A DNA stretch of 22,422 bases, taken from the IMG/VR virus record IMGVR_UViG_3300037847_003354, positions 1 to 22,422 of that record. One strand, 5' to 3'. The translations under genes and the position numbers were made by a program. Positions 932 to 16,960 of the stretch are shown here, piece after piece. The DNA is from a virus. Under the pieces are notes generated by a model, which did no database searches, was not told the DNA's origin, and saw nothing but the letters and a program-made list of their open reading frames with translations. The first letter of the stretch is position 1, and every line of letters begins with the position of its first letter.

Positions 932-3703
932 TTAGCGTGCGCGGGCAACTTTAAATGGATTCTCGGCAAATGCCATAAATAAATAATCCGTATTAGAGCC
1001 ATTGACATTGGAATTAGCGTTAGCTCTTACCTTGAAACCATTAGAAAGAAAGTCAATAGCATATTCTGCATGATCCGACTCAGTTCCTTCTGTGTCTGCA
1101 CGCAATACTTTTTGATTAACGTTGTATTCTCTACGTGCTGTATCCCACATAAACCACGCATTCTGTCCTGTCATGTTTTTAACAATCAAGAACCGGGGTG
1201 TAAATCCGCAGAAAACCATAGGTCCGTCGTTAGTATTACCAGTAGCTGTGTAGGAACCAATCAAACTAAAGCCCGGTACTGAAGTAAAGCAATATGCGAT
1301 GTTACTGCCACTTGCGTTTCCGACTTGGCCGACACCAAACACAGAAGAAGTTGGCTGACCACCCTGTTGAAAGATGTCAGAGTTACTATTAGCACTATTG
1401 CTATTATTTAGGCTCATATATTTTAGCCACGGGCTTCCAGTAAGATACGACGAACCTACATACCAATCACGGCTAGTATCTCTGTCTTTTATAATAATAA
1501 GTTCAGGAACAGCATTTAGACCGTGACCGATAGTTGCATTTTGACCATTACCAGTCCAAGTTACAATTGAAAATCCAGCGTTTTGATTTCTGCGGACACC
1601 AGAACTAATGCTTCCGCTAGTGAGGGTGGAATAAGATGACGAACCAGTACCCCAACACCAATTTACATAAGTACCATTGTTAACATTGATTAGATTTTGA
1701 CTATGTGTACCTTGAGCAACTGTAAAACCTGTGCTTGAAGTGCCAGTCAAATAGCCATAATCAGTGACATGGTTCTGTTTAAATTGTTCACTGGGAAAAA
1801 GAGAATTACTGACACCTCGGGCAGTGTCAAAAAGCCTATGATAATGACTATTGTTTCTACGTTTATGCCAAATTATGTCTGGCGTAAACGATAAACCGCT
1901 AATAGTTTTTGTGCTATTACCGTCGCCTGTATAAGTAATAACATCAAACACCGTTGAGGGATCCTCAATCGTCGGGTCTGTAAGGTTTGCAGTGCAAAGT
2001 GATTTATAACCTGATGGTGGTGTATGTTTAAATGGGCGCTGACCAAAGTTCAATGATGCTTTTCTAGACGTACCATTTAGAACAACAGAAGGAAGATAAG
2101 GACCATCAGTCAATCCGGTAAATGCAGTCCCTTGAGACGTGCCATTTTTGTAAAAAGTAAGAGACCCGTTGTCAGCATCAAATGCCACACCAATAACATC
2201 ACCAGTCGTCCAAGAACTGCCGTAACTTACGTTGCTGGTAGAAGGGGTATATTTACCGCCTGTTTCTGCGCCATAAGCATAAGATGACACACTGTGTAGT
2301 TGATGCTGAGTAAAATGCACAATGCCAAGAAGGTGCTCGTTACTGGTAACATTGTCGTACTCAAAATACCATTTACCAGAAGACATTCCAAACGTTCCAG
2401 CAGCTCCTTTCCAGCCATTATTGGTGCCTATAATATCTAAACAACCGTTACGAAGCGTAACTCCAGAATTTTGAAGAGGATTAAGCGTGCAATAGTTTCC
2501 GCCATTATTGCCAGAAGCTGCTTCGTAGTCTGTCGGCGTATCGATTAGGTTGTCAGATTGAATCGATTCTGAAACAATTTCATCGTTAATCTCAATAGCT
2601 CCAATCTTGACATAAGAAACTCCATCGGCTTTTTGAAGTTCTAGTTTAGTAAGCGTAATTGCTGAACCACTGTAAGCAGTTTTCCAGCCTTGTCCTGAGC
2701 CACTATTACCTGACCAAGAACCACTATTAACTTTATGACGATCACTGCCGTTATATGAGTAATAACGAATTTTGGTTACGTTAGAAATTCCAGTACTCCA
2801 ATTGATCGTAATGACTCTACCGTCGTGTGCAGTAAGAAAATCACCAGGGTACGAAGAATAAGCGCCGTTCCAAATATTGGGCCAATCCGTGTTTTCACTA
2901 GGATAACCGTTAGGAATGCTAACCGAGCCTTCTGGATAACTTGAAGGACCAGGACCCTGCAGGTTATAAACATTCCAATTGTTGTTATTGCCGCTGCTAT
3001 CCGTTCCAAGTGCAGAGTTGCTGCTGTTGTCAGAAAAATCTAAATACCAGCCAGTTGTACCGTATGTTCCACTGTATTCTTTAGGTTGCCAAACGTTGTT
3101 GTCGTCGTACTCCCCAAAGTCATCAGCATCTAGTTCTTGGTTGTCAATAAAATGGACCTCGGCTAGGTTAAAATCTGTAAAACCACCTTGATACAAGTTT
3201 TGAACACCGATGTAGTGGGGTTTATTTTGTAGGTTCATGGTGACGTTCTCGTTTGAACCTATTGCTCCGTTGTAGGTAGAGACGGTTTGCCGCTCGCCAT
3301 TAACGTAAAACTTTGTTCTATCGTTTTGATTTGACAACGTTGAATTAAACGCGTAAACGATGTGATACCACGCTGAAAAGTCCCGGAACTTTCTGTCAGT
3401 AACTTTTGCACTTCTAGTGGTACCGTTAACCCGGTGATGGGCAACTAACTCATCACTTTCAAAGCCAAACCAATCACGATTGCTATCATCGTCACGGCAA
3501 CCTAAAATTACAGCCTCACTGCTGTTTGAGGGGGTACGCTTTACCCAAGCTGATACTGTAAATTTGCGATTGTTACCAGAACCATAAGTTCTTGATAAAT
3601 AGGAGGAGTGATGATTGGTAAACCGCAGACTGCGTTCAATAGTGAAGCCGCCGCCAGAAGAACCGGCGGCACCTGCAAGGATATTATTATGAAAAATACT
3701 CAT
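932..3703 (-). CDS. Large adhesin-like tail protein with LamG-like and SPRY-like domains
   Basis: A 923-residue protein whose ATG overlaps the tail-fibre stop (ATGA at 3703-3700). After a Gly/Ala-rich head, residues about 20-190 look like a LamG/concanavalin-type jelly roll: FTVSAWVKR, then AWYHIVYAFNS, KFYVNGERQ, and FNLAEVHFIDNQELDADDFG. Residues about 275-380 resemble a small beta-sandwich binding module. Residues about 405-570 look like a SPRY domain (SGKWYFEYDN, then GDVIGVAFDADNGSLTFYKN). From about 600 to the end come repeated units with TYTGDGNSTKTI and FTPDIIWHKRR, then WTGNGQNATI and VPELIIIKDRDTSRDW, ending YLFMAFAENPFKVARAR. Such proteins are common in marine phages and are thought to bind surface glycans. 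It is probably a second receptor-binding protein or fibre tip. Which ligand it binds cannot be told. Confidence 0.85.
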   Translation of the reverse strand: MSIFHNNILAGAAGSSGGGFTIERSLRFTNHHSSYLSRTYGSGNNRKFTVSAWVKRTPSNSSEAVILGCRDDDSNRDWFGFESDELVAHHRVNGTTRSAKVTDRKFRDFSAWYHIVYAFNSTLSNQNDRTKFYVNGERQTVSTYNGAIGSNENVTMNLQNKPHYIGVQNLYQGGFTDFNLAEVHFIDNQELDADDFGEYDDNNVWQPKEYSGTYGTTGWYLDFSDNSSNSALGTDSSGNNNNWNVYNLQGPGPSSYPEGSVSIPNGYPSENTDWPNIWNGAYSSYPGDFLTAHDGRVITINWSTGISNVTKIRYYSYNGSDRHKVNSGSWSGNSGSGQGWKTAYSGSAITLTKLELQKADGVSYVKIGAIEINDEIVSESIQSDNLIDTPTDYEAASGNNGGNYCTLNPLQNSGVTLRNGCLDIIGTNNGWKGAAGTFGMSSGKWYFEYDNVTSNEHLLGIVHFTQHQLHSVSSYAYGAETGGKYTPSTSNVSYGSSWTTGDVIGVAFDADNGSLTFYKNGTSQGTAFTGLTDGPYLPSVVLNGTSRKASLNFGQRPFKHTPPSGYKSLCTANLTDPTIEDPSTVFDVITYTGDGNSTKTISGLSFTPDIIWHKRRNNSHYHRLFDTARGVSNSLFPSEQFKQNHVTDYGYLTGTSSTGFTVAQGTHSQNLINVNNGTYVNWCWGTGSSSYSTLTSGSISSGVRRNQNAGFSIVTWTGNGQNATIGHGLNAVPELIIIKDRDTSRDWYVGSSYLTGSPWLKYMSLNNSNSANSNSDIFQQGGQPTSSVFGVGQVGNASGSNIAYCFTSVPGFSLIGSYTATGNTNDGPMVFCGFTPRFLIVKNMTGQNAWFMWDTARREYNVNQKVLRADTEGTESDHAEYAIDFLSNGFKVRANANSNVNGSNTDYLFMAFAENPFKVARAR

Positions 3704-6700
3704 GAGTATGCAAGGGTAGCTACAGCGTGAATTGAGGTAGAAGAGCGGACGATGTAGTCGATCCGATCAACGCCATTTGCGGTAGTCGTGAGCGTGGGTG
3801 CGGCTCCACCTGCAAAGTCCCAGTAAGACCCGAATGCTGCTGTACGGTTTCCAGTTCCATCTTGAGTGATGAAGATAGAGCCGGATTGACCAGCAACCAG
3901 GTTGGTTGGGTTAGCAATGGTTGTGTTAGTTCCGAGCGTTAATCTAAAATTACAAGTAACTCCAAAGTTAGGGGTGATGGTTGAAGCGCTGGAGAGCGTA
4001 GAAATTTCAGCGACAGCGTTAGCTTGGGCAGTGATTTTGCCTCCAAACGTCGCCGAGCCATCGGCTTGTATGTATGCGTTTGTGGAACCATTTAATTGTG
4101 CATAGAAACATCCGTGGGAACTCGAAGTTCTATTAACAGTGGCGGGACCAGCAAACGTCGCAGAGCCGTCGGCAAGAATACTTGCATTAGTAGTATTATT
4201 CAAACGAGCATGGAAGCAAGGACTATTGCCAGTTGTCCGATTACTTCTAATTAGGCTTGATGCAATAATTGCAGGAACTGTTAGGTCACCAGTAAAATCA
4301 GCAGTACCATCAACATCCAGGCTGTCGCATTGCAACTCACCAGTAATATCTACGCCGTCTGATTTTGTTGAAAGCCTTACACCTCCGTCGTAATAAAGAT
4401 GTACATCTCCATTTTCGTTGGCAGCAAGATAGTTTTCACCGTTGTTGCTTTCAAGAACTAACTGTGAGTTACCACGAATATGTAGTTTGCCGGTCCCAGT
4501 ATCAGCAATGTAGGAGTCGCTGCCGTCGTGATAAATTCGCAGATCGCTGCCAGTGCCAAATCGTGCATTAACGTTGTCGATAAAATGCAAATTGTTGCCA
4601 ACGTTATCGTAGAAAATTTGACCGCCATCAATGTCTATCGCTCCATCAACATCCAGACTGTCGCACTGAACCTCGCCAGTTACGTCGATGCCGTCTGATT
4701 TGGTTGCAAGCTTTACGCTGTTGTCATAGTAAAGCTGTGCTGCTCCGTCAACAGTAAACGATGCCATAGTCTCACTATTGGCAGCGTTGGCGATAAAAAT
4801 ATCTTCGCCTCTAATAATTAAATGCCCTGTTCCTCCATCTTGAATGTAAGAGTTAGATCCATCATGATAAATCTGCAGGTCACTACCAGTGCCAAATTTT
4901 GCAATAGCACTATCATTAAACGTGACGTTACCAGTAAACGTACCACCAGCCAGTGGCATCTTCGTGGCAATACTGTTAGTGACAGTGGTAGAGAAGTTAG
5001 CGTCATCTCCAAGAGCAGCTGCCAACTCATTAAGAGTATCAAGCGTGCCAGGAGCACTATCAACCAAGCCTGCGACTTCAGTGTCTACGTAAGCTTTGGT
5101 AGCAGCATGCAGGTTGGAACTAGGAGCACCAGACAAAGTTAGTGCGCCTGTCAGAGTACCGCCAGTAAGCGGAAGTCTGGAGGACAAATCAACGTCACCA
5201 AAACTCAATACACCACTTCCATTAGTTTGAAGTGACTGACCATTGGTGCCAGTATCATTAGGCAGTGTTAATGTGTAATTAGCACCTGCGCTATGTGGTG
5301 GACCTTTGATCTTAATACCGTGAGAGTTGTTTTCACAGTTAAGTGTTAGTTCACCACTACCATTAGTACTATCACCTTTAACAATAACATTGTCATCAAA
5401 ACTAACAGCGCCAGTAAATGTACCTCCTGCAGTTGCCATTTTAGTAGCAATAGCAGTAGTATTTGCACTAATATTAGAGGTATTGGTACTGATATTAGAG
5501 GTGTTAGTACTAATATTAGAGGTATTAGTGCTGATATTAGATGTGTTAGTACTAATATTGGACGTATTAGTAGAAACTGTAGAATCCTGCGTAGCATTAG
5601 CGCTATCTACATACGCTTTTGTAGCTGCATGTAGGTTTGCAGTAGGTGCACCGGACAAAGTCAGCAGACCTGTCATCGTGCCACCCTGCTTTGGCATGTA
5701 CCTTGCCTCAGGATCTTCTGCAAAGTACTGCTTAAACTCCCACTTACTAGTAGAGGAGTTGTATTCCAGACGCATGGTCAGGTCAGATGAACCTGTAAAA
5801 CCACTGGGAATACCCGTAATGATGCTTTGAGATTGCAAACCTGTGGAATCAGTGACCTCAATTCGGTCTTGATTGCTAGGGCTACTAGGGAACGAAGCAA
5901 AATTAGCAACAGGCGTATAGAACACAGCAGATGCCACAGTTGAAGCAGCGGCATTTGCAGTTGCGTTAGCAGTGTTTGCGGTAGAAACAGCTGTACTGGC
6001 ATTCGAAGAAGCTGTATTAGCTGTCGATACGGCTGTAGACGCATTAGTAGAGGCAGTATTGGCGGTAGTTACAGCAGTATTAGCTTTGTCAATAGCTGTA
6101 TTAAACCCGCCTGCACCATCAGATTCACGAGAGTTATTTAGTGCGGTTGTTGCATTAGCGGATGCAGCATTAGCAGTAGTAACAGCATTAGATGCATTGG
6201 TTGATGCAGTATTTGCTGTACTTACAGCTGTGTTTGCACTATTAACGGCTGCGGTTGCATTGGTAGACGCAGTATTAGCAGTGGAAACTGCACTAGTTGC
6301 ATTGGTAGACGCGGTGTTTGCAGTAGAAACAGCTGCTGTAGCATTTGTAGATGCGGTATTTGCCGTACTAAGTGCATTAGAAGCGTTCGTAGCAGCGGTG
6401 TTTGCCGTGTTCGTAGCGCTGGTTGCTGCCGTAGATGCAGCATTTGCAGTGTTCGTCGCAGAAGTAGCTGCTGTAGAAGCTGCATTAGCCGTATTTACAG
6501 CATTAGTAGCAGCAGTAGAAGCAGAATTAGCCGTAACTACAGCGGCAGCTGCATCGGTATTAGCTTCATCCGATGTATCCGTAGATTCTTGGGTTACATA
6601 GAGAAGCTGAGTAAAGTTATCGTTCAGATCAACAGCACGTAACGCACTACCAGACTGAAAGTCAGACTGGATAGTAACGTTATCAGTGCTCCGAAAGATC

Positions 6701-6882
6701 TTGATAGCTTGTCCGCTAGGAGGAGCAGTAGTGAAGGTAACTGTACTCCCCGATACTGTAAATGCAGTGGTGGCTACGTTATTAACAGTGGCTTTTACGT
6801 CAGACGTATTGATATAATCAAAGGCGATAGAATATGCAGTTGTAGAACCATCACCTGTCGCAGTAAACGGTGAGTATGTCAT
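3700..6882 (-). CDS. Tail fibre protein (T7 gp17-like N-terminus)
   Basis: A 1060-residue protein, about twice the length of T7 gp17 (553). The first 100 residues match the T7-family fibre head that docks on the tail: YSIAFDYINTSDVKATVN, TFTTAPPSGQAIKIFRST, then ALRAVDLNDNFTQLLYVTQE. Residues about 101-315 are a low-complexity Ala/Thr/Ser/Asn shaft built on a 14-residue period (STANTASTNATAAV type), expected to form a trimeric coiled coil. Next come GGTMTGLLTLSGAPTANLHA and GGTLTGALTLSGAPSSNLHA segments, a TNTSNIS heptad array at about 438-472, and two 112-residue beta repeats (FGTGSDLQIYHDGSNSYI and FGTGSDLRIYHDGSDSYI). A shorter repeat pair (ADGSATFAG and ADGSATFGG) lies near the C-terminus. 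Its job is host recognition. No C-terminal self-cleaving chaperone is evident. A 3-nt gap separates it from the gp16-like gene. Confidence 0.93.
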   Translation of the reverse strand: MTYSPFTATGDGSTTAYSIAFDYINTSDVKATVNNVATTAFTVSGSTVTFTTAPPSGQAIKIFRSTDNVTIQSDFQSGSALRAVDLNDNFTQLLYVTQESTDTSDEANTDAAAAVVTANSASTAATNAVNTANAASTAATSATNTANAASTAATSATNTANTAATNASNALSTANTASTNATAAVSTANTASTNATSAVSTANTASTNATAAVNSANTAVSTANTASTNASNAVTTANAASANATTALNNSRESDGAGGFNTAIDKANTAVTTANTASTNASTAVSTANTASSNASTAVSTANTANATANAAASTVASAVFYTPVANFASFPSSPSNQDRIEVTDSTGLQSQSIITGIPSGFTGSSDLTMRLEYNSSTSKWEFKQYFAEDPEARYMPKQGGTMTGLLTLSGAPTANLHAATKAYVDSANATQDSTVSTNTSNISTNTSNISTNTSNISTNTSNISTNTSNISANTTAIATKMATAGGTFTGAVSFDDNVIVKGDSTNGSGELTLNCENNSHGIKIKGPPHSAGANYTLTLPNDTGTNGQSLQTNGSGVLSFGDVDLSSRLPLTGGTLTGALTLSGAPSSNLHAATKAYVDTEVAGLVDSAPGTLDTLNELAAALGDDANFSTTVTNSIATKMPLAGGTFTGNVTFNDSAIAKFGTGSDLQIYHDGSNSYIQDGGTGHLIIRGEDIFIANAANSETMASFTVDGAAQLYYDNSVKLATKSDGIDVTGEVQCDSLDVDGAIDIDGGQIFYDNVGNNLHFIDNVNARFGTGSDLRIYHDGSDSYIADTGTGKLHIRGNSQLVLESNNGENYLAANENGDVHLYYDGGVRLSTKSDGVDITGELQCDSLDVDGTADFTGDLTVPAIIASSLIRSNRTTGNSPCFHARLNNTTNASILADGSATFAGPATVNRTSSSHGCFYAQLNGSTNAYIQADGSATFGGKITAQANAVAEISTLSSASTITPNFGVTCNFRLTLGTNTTIANPTNLVAGQSGSIFITQDGTGNRTAAFGSYWDFAGGAAPTLTTTANGVDRIDYIVRSSTSIHAVATLAYS
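4309..4893 (-). repeat. Two tandem 336-bp (112-residue) repeats inside the tail fibre gene
   Basis: Two copies of a beta-structured unit lie 336 bp apart. The DNA segment at 4859-4893 aligns with 4523-4557, and 4645-4713 aligns with 4309-4377. The protein copies share FGTGSD-L-(Q/R)-IYHDGS, SYI, TG-H/K-L-IRG, then LYYD, VKLATKSDGIDVTGEVQCDS versus VRLSTKSDGVDITGELQCDS, and DVDG. The DNA copies differ mainly at third codon positions, so selection acts on the protein. This kind of unit is common in marine phage fibre shafts. Recombination between copies could shorten or lengthen the fibre. Confidence 0.85.
5467..5571 (-). repeat. Five tandem 21-bp units encoding TNTSNIS heptads
   Basis: Five back-to-back 21-bp units, with only a few substitutions between them, encode five TNTSNIS heptads at about residues 438-472 of the tail fibre. 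The heptad with Ile and Ser/Asn spacing suits a short trimeric coiled-coil or collagen-like spacer between the AATKAYVD module and the next shaft segment. The units are similar enough at DNA level for slipped-strand copy-number change, which would alter fibre length in multiples of one heptad. Confidence 0.9.
5940..6580 (-). repeat. Ala/Thr/Ser/Asn-rich shaft repeat in tail fibre gene
   Basis: Degenerate 42-bp units encode a 14-residue pattern (A-STANTASTNAT-AV type, two heptads) from about residue 101 to 315 of the tail fibre. A non-repetitive break, NNSRESDGAGGFNTAIDKAN, interrupts it about two thirds along. The spacing of small and apolar residues fits a long trimeric coiled coil. The reverse strand stays open through this stretch because the repeats contain few codons that give antisense stops. 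Confidence 0.85.
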
Positions 6883-6885
6883 GTT

Positions 6886-9800
6886 TTATCTAGGAATTTC
6901 TGTGAGTTGTTTGATTGCATCAGCAGTATCACTTGCTTCTGCATAGTTACCTTGATTGAGCTGTGAATCTCGATAAGATGTCATCTCTTTACGTGCTGCA
7001 TAGTCAGCATTTGTAGAGCTAAGGGCGTCAAAACCAGCCCTAAATGCATCATTATGAAGCTCATCCAGGAGTTGGTGGAGGAGAGTTTCTTTGATTGGGT
7101 ATTCTTCCTGGGTTTTTAGACCCCTTTCCTTCACATACTCTTTCATTTTTTTGTCCCAAAACTTTGGTCCAGCATTAAAGAGTTTTTCTACACGTTCTCC
7201 TAGCTTGTAATTCTGCGCAATCCAGTTATTAATGAATTGACGTTCCTCAGGCTTCAATGGTTGTCCATCTGTACGGTTACGACGAACGGTTTGAAGGTTA
7301 TCCCAGCCACTAGCAAGTAGTTGTTGACGCCAAGGCTCCATTCCAGGGTTTACCTTAAAGAAGGGTGCAAAGGTGTTCCATGCACGCGTCCAAGGATCGG
7401 TGTAGTTAATTGGATCACCAGTGTAAATATCGAGGTAATCCTCAATACCATCACCAATCAACCACTTGTTACGGTTAGCTAGCCAACCTTGGTAGTTGTT
7501 TTCAACATCTTTTAGTTGAGGTGTGATTGCCTTATTCAGGATGCTGCGGATACCAGCACCAGGAATAAGTTGGTCAGTGTTGTTGACCATGAAACGGTTT
7601 AATGCTGAAGGATCACCGCTAATAAGAGCAGCCAAAGGCTCAAATCCACTAAGGAAAGTTTTTTGACTGATGTTCATAGAGATGGAATGCGCCAAAGCAC
7701 GGAACCAATCTTCAGTAACAGCTTCGTCTACACGATTGAAGTTAGTGACAATGTCAGCAGTAAGACCAAGAAATGAATCGAAGGGTTCTAGTCCTTGATA
7801 ACTAAATGATTCACCAGTAATTGGATTAGTGATTGAAAATGGCTTGTAACCCATAGCTTGCATACGACGTTTTTCTGCATCGTCTTGGGGTCCAGATCCA
7901 GTAATAAGACCTTGTGCAGCCATCAATGCAGCTCCCATAACCACTGAACTACCCATCATGTAGCGACCGATATATTCAGATTGCAGTTGTTTAAACGCTT
8001 CAGGTCCAAAACCAGCAAGACCATGCTCAGACATAACGTCTTTGATCTGCCTTTCAGACTGTGCAGCAAACACACGCCTTGCTTTCCCTAGTGCAAGGTT
8101 TAGCTTACCGTTAGTGATAGCAGCAACTGCGTTACCAGGGCTAAATGTGGCAGCCAATTCAAGTGCATTAACGCCAGTACGGGGGAACATGAAGATGGAC
8201 TTCATGACTGGGAAGTTACGCATGACGTTTTCAAGACTGTCAACAACTTCAGAGTCAAGGTTAAGGTTGATTTCACCTGCAGCAAAGGCAGCAGCATCTT
8301 GAGCAACATTTGCAGAATCAGCCTTCATCAAACCGTCTGCATCAAACATCTCGTTATAGATGTTACGTTGCATCTTTTGGAAATCAGCTTCGTTAAAAGC
8401 ACCGCGTGACTGTGAAAGAAGATCATCGTATGCCTTTGCACGAGCTGCCATACTTGCGGAGAATGACTTAGTAAAGCCATCAATTGCACGCATGGAGTTC
8501 AAACCAAAACGAGGGATAGCATGATCATTGAAACGTGACAGAAGTTTTGTCATGTTCCAGACAGCAACCTTTCCAAAGTGCCCATCCTGATACCACTGGG
8601 ATGACATCTCTTCAAGAGTTTCGTAGTCATCAAGTGCATTGACCTGAAGATCTTTACGTGCATGGTTAGCAGAGGCACGTGGGTTATCTAGTGCATACTT
8701 CCACTCAGTCTGAAGGTTATTAAAACCACGTTGGAAGTTTTCAACAACACCACCGTAGGTGTACATAGCTCGTTTCCAAGCATCAGCACCTTCCTTGCCA
8801 CCGAAGATTCGACCACCTGCAGAGCCTGCAAAGACAGTCAAAGGTTTACCGACAAGAGCAATAGCAGCGCCAGCAGCGGCACGCACAGGTGCAAGACCAG
8901 TCAAGACACTGTTGTACCTAGCAGTCTGGATCTCACGTACAAGGTTTGAAGGCATTTCAGGGCTTCCATCACGGAAGGCTTTCTTCCAAAAACCAAGGCG
9001 ATTCTCTACAAGTTTGTTGAGAGCATGAATGGAATCAACCTTACCGCCAGTCTTTGCCATTTCACGGTAAAGAGGCTTCAGGTATTCAGGGTTTTGCTTA
9101 GCAACAGTCTTCAGTTCAGAAGCAAGTTCAGTTGCCTTACGTGTGTGCTCAGCAACAGCTTCAGTAAAATGATCAGCTTCGTTAGCCCACCAATCAACGT
9201 CAAGTGTGTCTGCACGCTTAGCTTCTTCAAGGAACTTGACAGCATTAAGACCAGTACCCTTGATTGATTTGTGGACACCTACTTCACGGATAAGCAAAGC
9301 AAGGTTATCAATAATCATTTCCTGCTGACTAGCAGTATTGACACTATCGCCAATGACATCAACAGCCGTAGAAAGGATGGCTTGATCCGTAGCAGCTTGG
9401 TTAGTCACCATTGCAGAGGCACGAAGCTTGGATGGTGAAATGATGTCCAAACCACGCATCAGCACTTCAGTTGCTTGTTTAGCGCCTGCAGTGGTAAGCA
9501 GCTTAATTTTTTCGCCACCAACTACAATGCGATCTTCGGTGAAGTCAAGAGATTTTTCAACTAATTTTTTAAACTCTTCAGGGTCAGACTTGGTAACAGC
9601 TTCTGTCAAAGCATTGAGTGCTTTCTTTTGTTCAGCAGCATTAACAGTCTCAGTACCATTTAAGGTCTTGATACGAGCATCAAACTCAGGCTTAGCTTTT
9701 TTGACAATGTCGTCTAGGAGAACAGAACGACCTGGAGCATCAGCACGAAGGATTTCCTTCATAAAATACTCAGAAGCTACAGGAGGAGCAGCACCATAAG

Positions 9801-10836
9801 TAGTACCAATATTGTCAGCAATACGTGCATGAGCGACCTTTGCCATAGGAACATCAGGTTGATAGTTCAGCACAGGACGTTCCATCTCATTAGATGGTGT
9901 ATTGACATACGGGTCATACTCGCCTGCTGCCTCTTCAAACCTCTGCACACCTTTTTCAATCAGTGCTTCTTCACGTGCATTTTGGTTTGCAACTACCTTG
10001 GCAACTAATTCGTCACCATTGGCTTGGTTGAGATTTGCAGCTTCAGTAAAGTTGCGCTCGTCAAGTACCTGCTTAGCTGCGTCATCCTTAGGAATGAGCG
10101 TAGTGCGTGGACGCAAAGAGAAGAATGCATCAGCAACACCAACAGCTCCACCTAAAGCAAAACTTTCCAACAAATTTTTGGCTCGAATTACATCAGGACT
10201 ATCGGAGTCACGGCTAGCCCAGGGAACCTGAACACCAAGCATGTCTTCCAAGGCAGTACCAAGGTTGCCAGCTTCATCTGTCTGCTCAGACACTGCCTCA
10301 ACAGCAGTACCTACACCAAGGTCTACAGCAATCTTGCCAAGGACCTGAGTACGACGAAGAGCAGATGCAGCTTGTACACCTTTACCAAGCTTGCCTGCAG
10401 CAGCAAGTCCCTGTGCACCCTTAGCAACTAGACCACCACCAGTGAGGGTGGGAATAATGATGCCAGAGGCGTCACGGATGAATTTATTGACACCGTTCAT
10501 CTCTCGATCACGACCATGGTGCTCATCCCACCACTCATCAGCAGGTTTAAGCCAGGGGATTAAAGAGGCAGCGTCGAATGCTGTGTCAATGACACCTGCA
10601 CCAACGCTAGCCACTTGTCCTACGACAGGAGTCTCAAGGACTCGATCACCCAGGTGCTTGCTATCTTCTTTTTCTTTTTCAGCAGCAGCGGCAGCCTTAC
10701 GCTTTTCATCCTCACGAGCTTCAGCATCACGTTGCTCTTGAATGCGTCGTTCTTCCTCCCGCTGTGCATTAAGGAGACGTTCCTCCTCTTCTAGTGGATC
10801 ATAATTAATTCGATCCAGTTCATTTGTAATATCCAT
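6886..10836 (-). CDS. Internal virion (core/ejection) protein, gp16-like
   Basis: 1316 residues, close to T7 gp16 (1318), and in the gp16 position between the gp15-like gene and the fibre. The first ~60 residues are a charged coiled coil (EEEERLLNAQREEERR, DEKRKAAAAAEKEKED) where T7 gp16 carries a transglycosylase domain; I see no lysozyme-type motif here. Apolar stretches occur at about 70-100 (VGQVASVGAGVIDTAFDAAS), about 126-150 (GIIIPTLTGGGLVAKGAQG) and about 957-980 (YMMGSSVVMGAALMAAQGLI). They could insert in membranes during DNA ejection. The middle is long and helical. The C-terminus (QLNQGNYAEASDTADAIKQL) is helical too. In T7-like phages gp16 is ejected into the cell and helps form the channel and pull in DNA. 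The start ATG overlaps the previous stop (TAATG) and has no Shine-Dalgarno sequence. Confidence 0.88.
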   Translation of the reverse strand: MDITNELDRINYDPLEEEERLLNAQREEERRIQEQRDAEAREDEKRKAAAAAEKEKEDSKHLGDRVLETPVVGQVASVGAGVIDTAFDAASLIPWLKPADEWWDEHHGRDREMNGVNKFIRDASGIIIPTLTGGGLVAKGAQGLAAAGKLGKGVQAASALRRTQVLGKIAVDLGVGTAVEAVSEQTDEAGNLGTALEDMLGVQVPWASRDSDSPDVIRAKNLLESFALGGAVGVADAFFSLRPRTTLIPKDDAAKQVLDERNFTEAANLNQANGDELVAKVVANQNAREEALIEKGVQRFEEAAGEYDPYVNTPSNEMERPVLNYQPDVPMAKVAHARIADNIGTTYGAAPPVASEYFMKEILRADAPGRSVLLDDIVKKAKPEFDARIKTLNGTETVNAAEQKKALNALTEAVTKSDPEEFKKLVEKSLDFTEDRIVVGGEKIKLLTTAGAKQATEVLMRGLDIISPSKLRASAMVTNQAATDQAILSTAVDVIGDSVNTASQQEMIIDNLALLIREVGVHKSIKGTGLNAVKFLEEAKRADTLDVDWWANEADHFTEAVAEHTRKATELASELKTVAKQNPEYLKPLYREMAKTGGKVDSIHALNKLVENRLGFWKKAFRDGSPEMPSNLVREIQTARYNSVLTGLAPVRAAAGAAIALVGKPLTVFAGSAGGRIFGGKEGADAWKRAMYTYGGVVENFQRGFNNLQTEWKYALDNPRASANHARKDLQVNALDDYETLEEMSSQWYQDGHFGKVAVWNMTKLLSRFNDHAIPRFGLNSMRAIDGFTKSFSASMAARAKAYDDLLSQSRGAFNEADFQKMQRNIYNEMFDADGLMKADSANVAQDAAAFAAGEINLNLDSEVVDSLENVMRNFPVMKSIFMFPRTGVNALELAATFSPGNAVAAITNGKLNLALGKARRVFAAQSERQIKDVMSEHGLAGFGPEAFKQLQSEYIGRYMMGSSVVMGAALMAAQGLITGSGPQDDAEKRRMQAMGYKPFSITNPITGESFSYQGLEPFDSFLGLTADIVTNFNRVDEAVTEDWFRALAHSISMNISQKTFLSGFEPLAALISGDPSALNRFMVNNTDQLIPGAGIRSILNKAITPQLKDVENNYQGWLANRNKWLIGDGIEDYLDIYTGDPINYTDPWTRAWNTFAPFFKVNPGMEPWRQQLLASGWDNLQTVRRNRTDGQPLKPEERQFINNWIAQNYKLGERVEKLFNAGPKFWDKKMKEYVKERGLKTQEEYPIKETLLHQLLDELHNDAFRAGFDALSSTNADYAARKEMTSYRDSQLNQGNYAEASDTADAIKQLTEIPR

Positions 10837-13655
10837 TAGTTAGCAGGAGTAAGACGTTCAACAACTTGTGGGTTCATATTTTGACTTTGCTGCCAAGGTG
10901 AAGGACCAAAGGCAATAGGTTGTGCACGCGCAGCTTCAATAATTGCTCTCTCTCTAACTGAGGCTTTATCAGAGGGACCAATCCAAGGTTGGATACCACG
11001 CTCACGGAGCAACGTCAGACCCAGTAGATCTTGAGTACGTTGGTTAAAGCGAGCATCGAGCGGTACACCAGCACGTTGTACAACACCGGGCAAAGTGTTA
11101 CCGATGAATTGATAGCGACCTGCAGCATGGACACGACCAGCTTTTTGCAACTCAATAACTTGACCAACAGTCAAATCAACCAAGTTGGCACCAATAATGC
11201 CTTTACTAGGACCACTGCGTCCAACGACCGTGCGTCCACCGTCAGCACCACCTTCGTTCATTGCGTTATAACCACCAACAGGATCAGACTCATACTTACC
11301 CAACACGTCCAATGCTCGTGATTGGGTCGGAGTCATTTGGTAGTTACGGGTATATACCGACTGTCCACCAGCAGACATAATCATAATGTCAGTGTTGGTA
11401 GGAGAAGGGTAGTTACGCAAGAATGAATAACGTGGAGGGATTACAGCCTCCATCTCGATAGCAGCTTCAATTTTGTTAAGAGCATCTTTGCTTTCCTCAC
11501 GCATACCATGTGCATCCATTTGCTTAAGCAATACTTCTGCGTAGCTATAGCTAGAACCATCAGGCTTTCTAGCTTTACGCTGAATCATTTGAATTTGAGG
11601 AACAATAGTTGGCTTCAAACCAGTATTGAGCTGCTCAGCGACTTTTTTAAGGGGATCAATATCGACAAGCTTAGTAGTAATACCAGAGGGGTTTTGTAAA
11701 AGGGCTTCGTTAATAGAAGATTCAGTGGCTTCATAATCACTAGTTTTTAGTTCTCTTTCCGTAGCATTCTTAAAGACTCCGGAACGGTATCCATCTTTTG
11801 CAACGTCAGTATCAAGAGCGTATTCACCTACATCTGTACCTTTGTTATACTCTTCGTTAAAAATTCCAATAGCTTGTTTGTATGCTTGGCTGTCTAACAA
11901 ACCGTCTTTACGCGCCTGAATATAATCAGTGCTGAATTTACGTAAAGCGTAATCAGCCATGATACCTAAAGATCGGTGTGTTGTTTTACCGTAAGTATTA
12001 GCACGATCACTCAGATAGTCTCGAATATGCTTGTCAGCTTTAGACCGTTCGTTATCAGAAGGTGCGGTGTTGTTTGTAGCTTTGGCTTTCTTTGCCAGAT
12101 CAACACGAGTTTCATAGGAAACAGGAAGCTTCATAGCCTCCTCAGCAGACATAAGACCGTATTTGATCTTTTCCTCTGCCAGGTCTACAAACGGTTTTTC
12201 ATCAACAGCTTCGGGAGTGAACTCACGAAACTTTTCTAGCGTTAAAATATGCTCATTATATAGAGGACCTTTTTTGCGGTATTGCTCCTGAAGATCGTCA
12301 ATATTTTCATTAGAAAGATCTATTTGATTATCTTCTTCAGTGACATCCTCAATCAGTTGATTAAGCATTCGGTCATGGTCTTTTTTAACAGCCATTTGCT
12401 CAGCTCGCTGTTCAGCCGTATAACGGTTGTAGACACGTTGAGCACGCTGTTGATTGATACTTAAAAAGTCGGCACGGAACAGCTCACCCAGGGTTTTGTT
12501 CCCCATTGACGGAAGCGTGGAGTTAGCAATTTCTGTAATCTCATCATCACTAAAACCAACAGGCACACCATTGACAATCTGACGTGGTGTTTCCATCAAT
12601 TTGAAAAGACGTTCGCGTGCCTCCTGCCTTCCGTTGGGAAGAAGAAATTGAAGACCAGCAAATGCTTTATGGAAGCGTCTTGCTGCACTAGGCTCAACTC
12701 TACTTTGAAAAACAGAGTTTTCTAAGGCTTGGATCTTGTCGAGCTTTTGTAGATTAAGTTCATTCTGAAGGGTACTAGAAACAATGGCATCTGCTTGCTG
12801 GCGCATCTTGCGCAATGCAGGCACAAGCATCGACGGCTTGATGCCATACATACCATTCTGCTTCAAATAGCCGTGCAATACCTGTTGAGCAACAAAAGCT
12901 TTGTCACGACTAGAGACTGCTTGTGAAGGAGTACCGTCTATAAATGTACCGTTTGGACCATAAAGTTTGACTTTAGTTTGGTTGTCGTTAGCAAACATAT
13001 TTTGCAAAGTAATACCAAACCGTTCAGACGCATAATCAAGTCTTGCTTGCCTTACTGCAACACTTAGGCCGTGAGTATTTTGCCGCATCTGGGCAACTTC
13101 AATTGGATCAGCACCAGCTTCTTCAGCAGATCTGGCACCGGCAAGAACATCAGTAGATTGAATGAAAAGGTTTTGATTAGTATAGTCGTCAGCAATATAA
13201 CCTTCTGCATCCTTGCGATCTGCAAGATCTTGAGTATAAAGTCTAGTTATTTCTTCATTATACTCTTTATCATACTTTTGTTTTTTAAAGCCAACATAGG
13301 CTTCAGCTGCAGACTTGCTTAGTGATGCAAGATTTTTGTAAATATCTTCACGATTTTGACCAGCGAGTTTGCGGCGAGCCTCCGCTTCTTCGAGTCGAAT
13401 CTTGGCATTATCTTTGCGGACCTCATTGTTGAGATCCATCATCCGATAAGACTCACTACGGAACTCATCCTCCTGATCCATAGCTCTATGGAAGGAGTTT
13501 AGATATGAAGCAGTGTTCGCGATATCTGCATCTCGTACAGCTTGAAGACCGCGTACGGTTTCTTCTGCCTGTTCAAGGATGCGTCTAGATGTATCGGGAA
13601 CCTGCAGTGGTTTGAACCCTCTATTTTCTTGGGCGTACCCTTGAAATTTAGACAT
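10836..13655 (-). CDS. Internal virion protein, gp15-like, with C-terminal lysozyme-like domain
   Basis: 939 residues against 747 for T7 gp15. The N-terminal three quarters is a long charged helical region (LEEAEARRKLAGQNRED, then TRLYTQDLADRKDAEGYIAD), as expected of a core protein stacked on the portal and ejected into the periplasm. The last ~166 residues (about 774-939) look like a lysozyme or lytic-transglycosylase fold. ALDVLGKYESDPVGGYNAMN places a likely catalytic Glu at residue 789 (codon 11291-11289), followed by LVDLTVGQVIELQ and HAAGRYQFIGNTLPGVVQRA. The 'AxGRYQFI' and 'GQV' motifs are typical of virion-bound peptidoglycan hydrolases. It likely cuts the cell wall locally during DNA entry. 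The extra length over T7 gp15 roughly equals this domain. The start ATG lacks a Shine-Dalgarno sequence and lies 6 nt after the gp14-like stop. Confidence 0.87.
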   Translation of the reverse strand: MSKFQGYAQENRGFKPLQVPDTSRRILEQAEETVRGLQAVRDADIANTASYLNSFHRAMDQEDEFRSESYRMMDLNNEVRKDNAKIRLEEAEARRKLAGQNREDIYKNLASLSKSAAEAYVGFKKQKYDKEYNEEITRLYTQDLADRKDAEGYIADDYTNQNLFIQSTDVLAGARSAEEAGADPIEVAQMRQNTHGLSVAVRQARLDYASERFGITLQNMFANDNQTKVKLYGPNGTFIDGTPSQAVSSRDKAFVAQQVLHGYLKQNGMYGIKPSMLVPALRKMRQQADAIVSSTLQNELNLQKLDKIQALENSVFQSRVEPSAARRFHKAFAGLQFLLPNGRQEARERLFKLMETPRQIVNGVPVGFSDDEITEIANSTLPSMGNKTLGELFRADFLSINQQRAQRVYNRYTAEQRAEQMAVKKDHDRMLNQLIEDVTEEDNQIDLSNENIDDLQEQYRKKGPLYNEHILTLEKFREFTPEAVDEKPFVDLAEEKIKYGLMSAEEAMKLPVSYETRVDLAKKAKATNNTAPSDNERSKADKHIRDYLSDRANTYGKTTHRSLGIMADYALRKFSTDYIQARKDGLLDSQAYKQAIGIFNEEYNKGTDVGEYALDTDVAKDGYRSGVFKNATERELKTSDYEATESSINEALLQNPSGITTKLVDIDPLKKVAEQLNTGLKPTIVPQIQMIQRKARKPDGSSYSYAEVLLKQMDAHGMREESKDALNKIEAAIEMEAVIPPRYSFLRNYPSPTNTDIMIMSAGGQSVYTRNYQMTPTQSRALDVLGKYESDPVGGYNAMNEGGADGGRTVVGRSGPSKGIIGANLVDLTVGQVIELQKAGRVHAAGRYQFIGNTLPGVVQRAGVPLDARFNQRTQDLLGLTLLRERGIQPWIGPSDKASVRERAIIEAARAQPIAFGPSPWQQSQNMNPQVVERLTPAN

Positions 13656-13661
13656 AATTAA

Positions 13662-14909
13662 TTAGAAGAATTTGTCGATCATTTGTGCTCCAAAACCTAC
13701 AGCAGCTGCAGCTCCAGCGACAACTGGATTACCTGACACCATACCAACAGTAGAAACAACACCTGCGACACCAGAAATACTCTGCAGGACAGGATTAGTA
13801 TCTTGAGCCATTTGATTTTGATTCTTAGCCCACACCGGTTTAACGGGTCTTGGTGGTTTAATTGCAAGAGGAAGTTTGGTTTCGAATGGCTTAGGAATAG
13901 CGGGTTGAATGGATGGCGACAACTGACGCTGTGCATAGGCAGCCATATCAGCGCCAAACTTTTGCTGTTGAATAGCAGCAACACGCTTTTCGTAAGAATC
14001 CGCAGCAGACAAAAGAGATCTACCCAACTGTTCGCGTGACATGTTGAACTGTTCAGTAGTAATACCAAGAGCCTTAGCTACTTGATCTTGCTGTGCTTTA
14101 AGACCTCTAACGGTGCTTCTTTTTTGCTGTCGTGCCTGTCGAGTTCGCAGTCGACGACCTCTTTCAATAAAGCCTTTTTCACCAAGCTGTGCATCGACAA
14201 TCTCGCGATCAATATCGATGGCTTGCTGTGATTTAGTAAGTTGATCAGCAATCAAAGCAGAGTTGACACCAGCAAGAGCCTGAATAGATTGCAGTGACCG
14301 TTGAGCAGTTCTACCAGCACGACCACGTGAACGTGACGCACCTTCTTCCTGCAGTGCTTGTAAACGGTTTTTGTATTGCTGCGTGTTGCTCTCAGCTTTA
14401 GCTTGCTGTTCACGTAGTTTCAGAGATTTCTGACGGTTTTCAGCCTGCAGTGTCTCCTGCTCAGCACCTAGTGAGAGCAGAGCTTTACTAGTCTGGAAAC
14501 CTCTTACAGCATCCTTAATACCTCTTTGCGCAGTATCGTACTGATACTTGCTATCAATGATTTGCTTTTGATAAGCAAGATTAGTTTCATCAGTCTCGAA
14601 TGCGTTAGCAAGAATTCGTTCATTAAAAACTTTTTCTTCACCCTCAAGCGCTTCCTTTTCAGCCTGTTGGTTAAAAATAAGCTGATCAACAAAGTTGCGT
14701 TCAGACTGCTCAAAAGCTTCTAGTTTTGCATCTTCGCGAATACTGCGAATCTGCATATTTGCCTTATAAGTATCCTTCGCTTGTTCGTCACGAAGTTGCT
14801 TATCTACCTTATTTTGGTAAATAGATGAATAGAAACGGTTAAGACCCTGTGCATAATTAGAGAGCTGTGTCTCCTTATTAGCCTTATATATTTTTTTACT
14901 GTCGCTCAT
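13662..14909 (-). CDS. Internal virion protein, gp14-like
   Basis: 415 residues from the ATG at 14909, in the gp14 position between tail tube B and the gp15-like gene. T7 gp14 is only 196 residues, so the assignment rests on position and character. The protein is almost all charged helix (LREQQAKAESNTQQYKNRLQ; RGRRLRTRQARQQKRSTVRG), with a proline-rich linker (IQPAIPKPFETKLPLAIKPP) and a Gly/Ala/Val-rich apolar tail at about 377-415 (SGVAGVVSTVGMVSGNPVVA, AAAAVGFGAQM). That tail could enter a membrane, fitting gp14's known role at the outer membrane during ejection. A TTG three bases upstream (14912) is also in frame, but the ATG is preferred. A strong Shine-Dalgarno sequence (AGGAGGG, 14920-14914) precedes it, and the ATG overlaps the tube B stop (TGATG). 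Confidence 0.8.
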   Translation of the reverse strand: MSDSKKIYKANKETQLSNYAQGLNRFYSSIYQNKVDKQLRDEQAKDTYKANMQIRSIREDAKLEAFEQSERNFVDQLIFNQQAEKEALEGEEKVFNERILANAFETDETNLAYQKQIIDSKYQYDTAQRGIKDAVRGFQTSKALLSLGAEQETLQAENRQKSLKLREQQAKAESNTQQYKNRLQALQEEGASRSRGRAGRTAQRSLQSIQALAGVNSALIADQLTKSQQAIDIDREIVDAQLGEKGFIERGRRLRTRQARQQKRSTVRGLKAQQDQVAKALGITTEQFNMSREQLGRSLLSAADSYEKRVAAIQQQKFGADMAAYAQRQLSPSIQPAIPKPFETKLPLAIKPPRPVKPVWAKNQNQMAQDTNPVLQSISGVAGVVSTVGMVSGNPVVAGAAAAVGFGAQMIDKFF

Positions 14910-16960
14910 CAAGCCCTCCTATAATATTTGGTAGAGTAGTTTCCTTCCCACATAGCTGAATTTAGTGAAACAATATAAGGGTTGTCGCTAAATACTTTTA
15001 AAGTGTAACTAGTATTACGTTGGTTAATTGGCACCGTAAAAACATTACGGTCTTCAATCGGAACTTGATCAAGCAGCGAGTAACCAGCATTGAAGATCGT
15101 ACCTGCAATAGTTTTTTCTGCTTCGTTATTAGCAGTTACTTTAAACTGCAAGCCGCCTGACAAGCCAACAGAAAACAGCATACGTGCAATAGTCAGGTAG
15201 GCTGTGTAATCAACAGTCTCCCCACTTCGATAAAACAGCCTAGGAAGATTAACTGAGAAGTTAAGCTTATATCCAACCTTCCAATTCAAAGAACTATAAT
15301 CCTTACCTGTAAGAACAAAATGATTACCACCTGACGTACTGGTAGTAGGAGTAAGGAAAAGACCAGACGCTGTAGAACCTGAAGTAGCATCTTGGACACA
15401 AACTGGCGTTAGTCCAGGAATTAACTCAAAGGGAACAAACAACTTAGTAGTTTTAGTTGCTGCGTCGTATGTCTTAGATGTAGGAGCAACCATAAAATCA
15501 AATGATGGGTTGCCACTAACAGTGGTTGTACTTGTAGGTAATGCGTTGAGCTTGGAAGTCAAGAGTGTCATCTGTCCGACACCTTTGACAACAGCAATCA
15601 TGGTGTCTGTGTCAGTCGCAAAGAACTGCACATCACCAGGCATTTCCCAGCTATACCAGGCACGCATGAGAGTCTGATCACCCTCAACGTATGACCTGTA
15701 GTAGTAGATCTTTTTACTTGCTTGTCCGTACAGTCCAATGAAAGAGTTCTGTGTATCAGAAAACATTGAAGACACTGACTGAGGAATGTACTGTGTAATA
15801 GTTTTTCCTAAGTCAACGAACAAAGGACTAGCACCTTGACCTTGTGTCTGCATACCAAACACACGGCAATAGTCAGTAGTCTTGTTAATGAAGACCATGT
15901 TGGTTCCGTTCTCAACGGGTGCTACAACAGGGTCAACCTCATAGTTGGAGATACTTTTGATGACAGCCTGTGTAGGGCTAAGAATGCCAGTGTCGGAGAA
16001 CAGCATGAACTGCTGCTGTTGACTGAACAACACAACACCCTGAGAAACAGGAACAGCTGCTGTCAGCGTGACAGGACGAAGGCTTACACACTTAAGATCA
16101 ATGGGATCAGCTTCAGTTTGGATCTGAGCTGAATTGACAAAGTAGTTGAAGAAGTTTTCTCCACGTGCAGGCTGGCTAAGGGTGACGTTGTCACCAGCCA
16201 AGAAACCAAGACGATTGTTTGCAAAGAAACCGTATGTCAATTTTTTGCCAATAAATCCTGGGGAAGGATTAGTGACATCATCACCGACAGTACGATTATC
16301 AAATGTAATTGCACTGAAAGTAAAGTTATTAGCACTTGTACGTACCAACTTATGTGGCATAGTGGCATTATCCAAGCCTTGAGATACGCCTGGCTTTACC
16401 GTTTCATTCCAAGTAGTGCCATCAGATTTGACATAGAAGTCATCCTCTGCTGCAGATGTATTACTAACCTTATAAACAGCACCGCTGTTAGAGCTAGCAC
16501 TAGGCAGATTAGCAATACTGTCAACAGTAGCTGCAATAGAACCACTGACATTGGTTGACGACATTGCAGTTGTAATCGTCTTGTTAATAACGATTATTTG
16601 ATCCTGCCTTGAGATCACATGAAAATCATTGTGATTACCATTTAGGTACGTTTGACTAGTACCGTTTGTCATTGTGGCTGCTGTGCCATCAGTGTTCCAC
16701 AGCTGGATTTGCTGTGCCTTGATAACACCTACATATGCTTCAGTACTGGAGACACGAAAATAAAACCAATGACCAGCTGCATATGTGGTGGATGATCCAA
16801 GGTCTGCTTTCCAACTAAAGCCAGGGCGTTTAATAAGACCGAAAGTCGGGTCTGGATATCCGTTAATAATTTCAGATACTTGATTAGGAAGCTTTTGATC
16901 GTCAGGTTGCGTGGATACACCACCCAGAAAATCAGGAATTTGTTGAGTGATGTTTGCCAT
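14909..16960 (-). CDS. Tail tubular protein B (tail nozzle), gp12-like
   Basis: 683 residues (T7 gp12 is 794). The N-terminus MANITQQIPDFLGGVSTQPD, then QKLPNQVSEIINGYPDPTFG and LIKRPGF, is the hallmark of T7-family tail tube B proteins. The rest is beta-rich, with segments such as FISKTTDY-like strands (actual MVFINKTTDYCRVFGMQTQG), ASKKIYYYRSYVEGD and MRAWYSWEMPGDVQFF typical of the family. It forms the distal part of the short tail and holds fibres together with tube A. The C-terminus (VSLNSAMWEGNYSTKYYRRA) is intact. The start overlaps the tube A stop (TAATG), so the two are probably translated together in matched amounts. No clear Shine-Dalgarno sequence precedes it. Confidence 0.95.
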   Translation of the reverse strand: MANITQQIPDFLGGVSTQPDDQKLPNQVSEIINGYPDPTFGLIKRPGFSWKADLGSSTTYAAGHWFYFRVSSTEAYVGVIKAQQIQLWNTDGTAATMTNGTSQTYLNGNHNDFHVISRQDQIIVINKTITTAMSSTNVSGSIAATVDSIANLPSASSNSGAVYKVSNTSAAEDDFYVKSDGTTWNETVKPGVSQGLDNATMPHKLVRTSANNFTFSAITFDNRTVGDDVTNPSPGFIGKKLTYGFFANNRLGFLAGDNVTLSQPARGENFFNYFVNSAQIQTEADPIDLKCVSLRPVTLTAAVPVSQGVVLFSQQQQFMLFSDTGILSPTQAVIKSISNYEVDPVVAPVENGTNMVFINKTTDYCRVFGMQTQGQGASPLFVDLGKTITQYIPQSVSSMFSDTQNSFIGLYGQASKKIYYYRSYVEGDQTLMRAWYSWEMPGDVQFFATDTDTMIAVVKGVGQMTLLTSKLNALPTSTTTVSGNPSFDFMVAPTSKTYDAATKTTKLFVPFELIPGLTPVCVQDATSGSTASGLFLTPTTSTSGGNHFVLTGKDYSSLNWKVGYKLNFSVNLPRLFYRSGETVDYTAYLTIARMLFSVGLSGGLQFKVTANNEAEKTIAGTIFNAGYSLLDQVPIEDRNVFTVPINQRNTSYTLKVFSDNPYIVSLNSAMWEGNYSTKYYRRA
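14914..14920 (-). promoter_or_regulatory. Strong ribosome binding site of the gp14-like gene
   Basis: AGGAGGG lies inside the 3' end of the tail tube B gene. The ATG at 14909 follows four bases after its last G. The in-frame TTG at 14912 would be only one base away from the site, so this motif decides the start in favour of the ATG. It is one of the few good Shine-Dalgarno sites in the window. Confidence 0.8.

Follow-up and report, generated by a model that had tools for sequence, protein, structure and literature searches.

A lambda-type lysozyme domain near the C-terminus of a gp15-like phage protein, and a candidate exchange slot for wall hydrolases in cyanopodovirus-like relatives of T7

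Introduction

Which virion protein carries the enzyme that opens the cell wall when a T7-like phage enters its host? In T7 an SLT transglycosylase lies at the N-terminus of gp16 (profile match to residues 9-123). The virus record IMGVR_UViG_3300037847_003354, whose whole length of 22,422 bases is the window analyzed here, raises the question anew with the gp15-like protein encoded just before its gp16-like protein. We conclude that this gp15 is very probably a T7-like ejection-tunnel protein of a phage that is most likely cyanobacterial, bearing near its C-terminus a peptidoglycan glycosidase of the lambda R type in a slot for exchanged hydrolases. The evidence is the identity of the domain by profile and by model, synteny, a middling structural resemblance of the gp15 body to T7 core proteins, and one clean cassette replacement in a relative.

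A lambda-type lysozyme domain in the gp15-like protein

The features at issue are as follows.

10836..13655, minus strand: gp15-like, predicted ejection-tunnel protein, 939 amino acids, with a putative C-terminal wall hydrolase (phrog_24152 at residues 3-720, E 1.1e-32; body compared with T7 core-protein structures)
10941..11351, minus strand: lambda-type lysozyme domain (candidate exchangeable cassette), about residues 769-905 (PHROGs, relatives' alignment, PDB profile, model)
11289..11291, minus strand: codon of the putative catalytic acid Glu789, equivalent in position to lambda R Glu19 (alignment, model, 1am7 match)

An earlier note on this DNA had proposed a lysozyme-like domain with Glu789 at the C-terminus of the gp15-like protein, and this is borne out by PHROG and PDB profile matches, by matches of a structural model and by the position of Glu789 relative to Glu19 of lambda lysozyme. 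The family phrog_1200 (“endolysin”) matches residues 773-880 (E 1.3e-6); three more PHROGs match the same region, two of unknown function and one named a transcriptional regulator. A profile of 11 homologous domains reaches lambda lysozyme in the PDB (3d3d/1am7, E 5.6e-5), which a single-sequence search with the window domain found only at E 0.22, and lambda R is found by our own lambda-type domain profile (E 7.9e-6). No Pfam model reached its cut-off in the lysozyme region, where the scan of the gp15-like protein gave only a chance-like SOUL match (729-778, E 0.047), so PHROGs and the PDB profile were needed to name the domain. IMG/VR relatives carry it at 88-96% and 57% identity. Among the matches listed (60 of 103 phage records), identity to the window domain is highest (48.6%) in Synechococcus phage S-CREM2 (L129:2501-2923), where the match falls in a large protein of this cyanomyovirus with the annotation “endolysin (virion protein)”. 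No cellular source of the cassette was identified, as only four of 158 candidate stretches in genome contigs were confirmed, all in metagenome-assembled genomes and at 28-46% identity.

Structure prediction, which the earlier note had named as a check, also points to a lysozyme-like fold for the C-terminal segment. In an AlphaFold2 model of the full-length protein (predicted local distance difference test, pLDDT, 71.5; predicted template-modeling score 0.37), residues 768-911 match residues 82-252 of 8kea_A from cyanophage A-1(L) at Z 7.6 (122 residues, 4.2 Å, 21% identity), and residues 771-908 match lambda lysozyme 1am7 at Z 6.9 (113 residues, 4.3 Å, 21% identity); a Foldseek comparison of the model with 1am7 is weak (E 1.5). 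Glu789 ends the model helix 776-789. The 1am7 match starts with residue 771 on residue 1, which, assuming no gap, places Glu789 at residue 19 of lambda R, a glutamate that we take to be catalytic; the lambda-type family is presumably GH104. Slt-type enzymes match the window domain at Z 5.0-5.3, compared with 6.9 for lambda, and a distant common fold with SLT therefore remains; no SLT Pfam match was found for the domain. Profiles and model together confirm, at the level of prediction, that the gp15-like protein ends in a lysozyme domain of the lambda R type.

The fold could be kept while the domain is catalytically dead and only binds the wall or positions the tunnel, but Glu789 and a GRYQF segment do not vary in alignments of the window-type domains with those of L040 and S-TIP37, and the replacement of the domain by another lytic-enzyme-like domain in one relative (below) suggests selection for wall cutting. 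We therefore regard a dead domain as very unlikely.

Gene order, gp15 body and host

On the minus strand the window runs from a portal-sized open reading frame (ORF) through ORFs in the scaffold and capsid positions and one in the tail-tube position to the nozzle, gp14-position, gp15-like, gp16-like and fiber genes, the portal, scaffold, capsid and tail-tube labels being based on order and size. The gp15-like gene thus lies behind the nozzle, between the gp14 position and gp16, as in the T7-type order. Its neighbors are:

14909..16960, minus strand: tail nozzle, gp12-like (Pfam Phage_nozzle, E 6.3e-149)
13662..14912, minus strand: gp14-position protein, 416 amino acids (phrog_20153, E 1.5e-19; synteny)
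6886..10836, minus strand: gp16-like internal virion protein, 1316 amino acids (phrog_6651, E 1.6e-195)
3700..6882, minus strand: tail fiber, gp17-like, downstream of gp16 (Pfam Phage_T7_tail, E 7.9e-14)

The gp15 body (model residues 145-603) aligns with the T7 core-protein and ejectosome entries 9jyy, 7eyb, 6yt5, 6ysz and 7k5c at Z 6.1-7.0 (gp15 is named in two of the titles, and the remaining chains were assigned to gp15 by length) and with the PhiM1 ejectosome chain 8vb2_E at Z 5.9 (assigned to OEP by length). These make up six of the top nine rows among 963 chains aligned to the model. The scores are middling, and because helical models commonly reach Z 6-8 through their common arrangement, the modeled resemblance to T7 core proteins is suggestive only.

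A 46.9-kb relative, G001, is 99.7% identical to the window in the capsid, 98% in the portal and 95% in gp16. It encodes psbA, a T7-type RNA polymerase, ThyX, polA, a T7 terminase domain and a match of the chlorophyll-binding (hli-like) type, and from this gene content the host of the window phage is most likely a marine picocyanobacterium. The tail fiber of the window (3700-6882, minus strand) has STNTSNI-type repeats in tandem, together with long TANTAST-type stretches.

Replacement of the cassette in a close relative

The cassette is framed by two conserved segments.

11352..11555, minus strand: hinge before the cassette, residues 701-768 (NYPSPTNTDIMIMSAGG), conserved, with the left swap joint near residue 764 (window/L028 comparison)
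10839..10940, minus strand: gp15 tail, residues 906-939, motif W[RQ]xxxxM[NR]PxV, conserved and kept on cassette replacement (window/L028 comparison, motif search)

In the relative L028 (IMGVR_UViG_3300017767_000258), gp16 is 93% and the gp15 body 75% identical to those of the window. Compared codon by codon, the two gp15 genes agree in DNA sequence by 85-96% between residue 680 and about 764 (only 66-82% next to an indel), by 33-62% within the cassette and by 90% beyond about residue 916. What L028 carries as a cassette resembles a lytic transglycosylase (PDB 9udh, E 3.4e-4) and also matches stretches of a tape-measure protein of Rhodobacter phages and of an internal capsid protein of a Rhizobium phage, and the tail FGPSPWQQSQNMNPxVVERLT is retained despite the different cassette. 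L027 stands further from the window (gp16 88%, nozzle 83%, gp15 body 66% identical), but its cassette is still the lambda one, at 89% identity. A maximum-likelihood tree of 27 gp16 rows places L028 as sister to L029 inside the lambda-cassette clade (Shimodaira–Hasegawa-like approximate likelihood-ratio support 99), so the replacement is most simply placed in L028's line. With a single contig showing the swap, a chimeric metagenome assembly has to be considered. We judge it highly improbable: a reading frame of 943 amino acids runs without interruption through the two joints, the flanks on either side have a divergence that is L028's own rather than being a copy of another contig that we fetched, and it is independent isolate genomes that supply the wider range of cassettes.

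Beyond the cassette, residues 1-700 of gp15 (window 11555-13655) compared with L025 show 98% identity over 1-400, 72% over 401-600 and 66% over 601-700, followed by 83-97% to the end. This unevenness points to recombination inside gp15 outside the cassette as well.

The gp15 C-terminus across relatives

Pfam scans of 39 gp15-position proteins, one protein at a time, gave a wall-hydrolase match above the curated cut-off in 10, distributed as follows.

Glucosaminidase: DSL-LC07 and S-SRP01, above cut-off
SLT: S-CBP4, L088, L085 and L122, above cut-off; also above cut-off in S-CBP3
SLT_3: S-CBP3 and L061, above cut-off
Hydrolase_2: S-SBP1 above cut-off, WH11-B below cut-off
Phage_lysozyme2: S-CBP2 above cut-off, P60 and Syn5 below cut-off
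Peptidase_M23 as a second domain: S-CBP4 and S-SRP01

As in the window, Pfam gave no wall-hydrolase match in gp15 of L028, L040 or S-TIP37. We also searched 92 gp15 rows with profiles of our own, built from the Pfam-matched domains and the lambda-type and L028 domains, whose seeds match by construction. One of seven glycosidase types was found in 57 of the 92 (glucosaminidase 17, lambda-type 14, SLT 12, SLT_3 5, tail-lysozyme 5, SleB-like 3, L028-type 1), in some cases accompanied by one of three peptidase-like domains that we label M23, M23-like and M15-like; one further row has an M15-like domain only. The lambda-type domain is present by profile in the isolate S-TIP37. Second domains combine with several glycosidase types, and the lambda-type domain itself occurs alone, with an M15-like domain (L040) or with an M23-like domain (L087). 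In the remaining 34 rows these profiles found neither a glycosidase nor a peptidase-like domain; among them are P-SSP7, P-SSP2, P-GSP1, 9515-10a, NATL2A-133 (first ORF only), HTVC119P, CRP-361 and the mis-picked L083. In this count L083 is a gp14 ORF of the L026 contig, L081 is the L028 contig and was counted once, L119 is apparently the S-CBP1 genome, and 17 of 80 loci were left out because they had no adjacent gp15 ORF of 250 amino acids.

The frame around the cassette is shared more widely. A looser tail pattern, W/F-[RQK]...[ML][NRQ][PF], follows four glycosidase types (lambda-type, L028-type, SLT and SLT_3) in 22 of the 92 rows and missed L050, though its tail is alike; in some gp15s the tail motif is followed by a further peptidase-like domain.

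On a 79-row gp16 FastTree the glycosidase type has to change 15 times (minimum 6, shuffled mean 44.3) and the peptidase type 11 times, on long branches and with 10 of 23 fetched phage records left out, including the five with tail-lysozyme domains. The 27-row tree, of chosen rows, needs only four glycosidase-type changes, the least possible, so cassettes appear to be mostly inherited and occasionally replaced.

What is newer, judging from these sequence comparisons, is that related phages appear to swap unrelated enzymes at the gp15 C-terminus, which acts as a slot for them. We lean, with little more than even confidence, towards a broader reading for the cyanopodovirus-like relatives of T7, in which the end of gp15 would be a plug-in socket: between a conserved hinge and a conserved WRQxxxMNP-type tail, the cassette would be exchanged as a unit, leaving the tunnel body and gp16 in place, and such exchange may fit the enzyme to the host wall. 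The cutters exchanged there would be a lambda lysozyme, two SLT types, another transglycosylase, a glucosaminidase, a SleB-like enzyme and a tail lysozyme, alone or ahead of a peptidase-like domain.

Three further observations concern these relatives. In 19 rows that form a clade close to the window in gp16, gp15 has no recognizable hydrolase (L054, L055, L057, L059, L060, L062, L064, L066-L068, L070-L072, L074, L075, L077-L079 and L084), and Pfam at E 0.01 found no hydrolase in gp14 or gp16 of L057, L060 and L074. The M23-like C-terminal domains of L087 (gp15 residues 853-968), L011 (S-CBP1, 870-987) and L020 (P60, 874-999) have a “STGPHLDVK”-type stretch before a “HGIDY”-type one, an order that would suit a circularly permuted M23; when this was examined, doubled sequences gave no single longer match to a two-sequence M23 profile among the matches listed. 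Separate glucosaminidase-type genes of 187-325 amino acids occur in 14 loci (L119 repeating L011), for example L005:12534-13097, L010:11116-12084 and L011:13458-14426. Several lie downstream of tail fibers and are likely lysis enzymes, and the phages that carry them mostly also have a gp15 hydrolase.

The gp16-like protein and the gene 15/16 boundary

The earlier note had described the N-terminus of the gp16-like protein as a charged coiled coil in place of a hydrolase. A charged helix is indeed predicted there:

10663..10797, minus strand: charged helix, gp16-like residues 14-58 (model)

Neither Pfam nor PHROGs recognized a wall hydrolase in the window's gp16-like protein. Across 27 gp16-type ORFs from 24 phages, including that of the window, there was no SLT or lysozyme Pfam match at E 0.1; Peptidase_M23 was found in one of the 27, which is not the window's. 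The model of gp16 residues 1-650 is poor (pLDDT 56.8) and its best match is a designed helical protein (Z 7.5), with no hydrolase in the 50 rows listed for this low-confidence model. Because residues 52-243 were modeled at pLDDT below 50, the call of no hydrolase comes from the profiles, and the model is too poor to exclude one. The gp16 region consists of two consecutive ORFs in S-CBP3 (L001:5767-9581), S-RIP1 (L012:5234-9231) and S-CBP2 (L021:3116-8592), which may reflect a genuine split, a frameshift or an error in sequencing.

With the genes adjacent and the order of domains the same as in T7, the boundary between genes 15 and 16 might have moved past the N-terminal transglycosylase of gp16, so that the T7 domain now ends gp15. 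Some gp15s of the cyanopodovirus type do carry SLT domains that T7 gp16 residues 9-123 match (E 1.7e-11), and for those phages an SLT domain may have been transferred long ago. The window domain, however, is lambda-type rather than SLT, and hhalign against T7 gp16 1-156 gave a probability of 0.4%, with low power as one side is a single sequence. A gp15 tail independent of the cassette follows the domain, unrelated enzymes occupy the same slot in relatives, and gp16 starts directly at the end of gp15 in the window, where stop and start overlap as TAATG, and at the same place in the five close relatives. A slid stop and start, as the earlier note had suggested, is therefore rejected for the window domain and has in our view only the slightest chance of being correct.

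Proposed role and alternatives

For the lambda-R-type glycosidase on a gp15 tunnel protein, we envisage the following course. The gp15-like protein would be packed in the internal core, leave through portal and nozzle at infection and, by analogy with T7 (available text of PMC8954989), reassemble across the periplasm as a tunnel. Its lysozyme domain would cut glycan strands, with Glu789 as the acid, letting the tunnel pass the wall, and gp16 would then need no wall-cutting domain of its own. Unrelated wall hydrolases would be exchanged in the C-terminal slot by recombination between the conserved flanks. We infer the activity of the enzyme, its presence in the virion, its timing and its copy number; the supposition that it would travel with gp15 rather than gp16 is in keeping with the placement of the domain.

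Alternatively, the domain could be a lysis enzyme fused to gp15 that acts at the end of infection instead of at entry. No separate wall hydrolase was recognized in G001 by Pfam over part of its ORFs (9 proteins; 32 ORFs, with 25 of 28 families listed), and our ten profiles match nothing there outside gp15-sized ORFs, which speaks in favor of this reading. On the other hand, the domain sits in a protein in the ejection-protein position, and in addition to their gp15 hydrolase several cyanopodoviruses possess a separate glucosaminidase-type gene downstream or an annotated endolysin or lysozyme. The family also has few stand-alone members: 72 of 87 ORFs exceed 600 amino acids and four are of 250 or fewer, in a set that adds others to the top 80 of at least 293 IMG/VR places, with some contigs present twice and some ORFs cut. 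A fused endolysin is thus very unlikely.

Several points, besides the middling body scores, weigh against the wall-cutting tunnel protein that we favor. Foldseek with the gp15 model gave 8vb2_E as its first match at a non-significant E of 0.62. Profiles of gp15 and gp16 gave no signal in hhalign against single T7 and phiKMV sequences (for gp15, 0.1% probability with phiKMV and 0.2% with T7, one-sequence templates of low power), and because of this the label gp15-like is owed mainly to synteny and size. The Glu789 column is no longer invariant once the most distant members are included, and the clean swap comes from one metagenomic contig. Finally, in the available text of PMC10966104, two hub domains of A-1(L) are reported to be capable of hydrolyzing cells, and the lysozyme domain is neither of them.

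Relation to known systems

The placement of a hydrolase-like domain at the C-terminal end of a gp15-position protein is shared with phiKMV gp36 and PhiM1 OEP. In phiKMV, the gp15 position is taken by gp36, an internal virion protein of 898 amino acids with the annotation “internal virion lysozyme motif”. It differs in that none of our ten profiles matches it at E 1, and its C-terminus looks, read by eye, T4-lysozyme-like, a family that we assume to be the right one. Lambda R itself resembles the window domain by profile and structure, with Glu19 in the place of Glu789, and differs in being a free-standing lysis enzyme of 158 amino acids.

T7 shares the gene order and the middling structural match of the gp15 body; its gp15 is described as having no hydrolase domain (PMC8954989). 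The hydrolase domain of T7 gp16 can swap to the gp15 homologue, with gp35 of K1E and K1-5 named as homologues said to contain lysozyme activity (Swanson, Hou, Cingolani 2022, PMC8954989). There, as known from that description rather than from sequence, the swap is between proteins, whereas here the type of enzyme changes within one slot. PhiM1 OEP, a gp15-type protein (PDB 8vb2), carries its lysozyme-like domain in almost the same position (residues 718-903), and a chain of the PhiM1 ejectosome matches the window gp15 body; the phage's gp16-type protein also has an endolysin-like domain (268-528), whereas none is recognized in the window's gp16-like protein (PMC11440229). The best structural match of the window domain, the hub protein gp15 of the Anabaena myophage A-1(L), likewise belongs to a cyanophage virion, with a lysozyme domain at residues 56-265 that takes in the matched stretch, but sits in the baseplate hub of a contractile tail (PMC10966104).

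Given phiKMV, K1E/K1-5 and PhiM1, a hydrolase on gp15 is thus of an already known kind, and the arrangement is not a departure peculiar to the window phage, as had been supposed. For the exchange slot, we found no description among the titles and abstract openings listed for the mainly open-access literature on core-protein hydrolases of podoviruses or cyanopodoviruses, or on their exchange, which is no proof of novelty; a cyanopodovirus genome paper (PMC9860041), in its available text, mentions internal core proteins without a hydrolase.

Implications

Accounts of how T7-like phages cut the wall at entry are usually based on T7 gp16. In the window phage the cutter would be carried by the tunnel protein and would be exchangeable. 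The window type and the L028 type form a natural pair, in which the cassette differs while the flanks and neighboring genes remain close. Such a pair opens two questions to experiment: does the ejectosome's wall enzyme behave as a free module, and does the type of enzyme track the peptidoglycan of the host?
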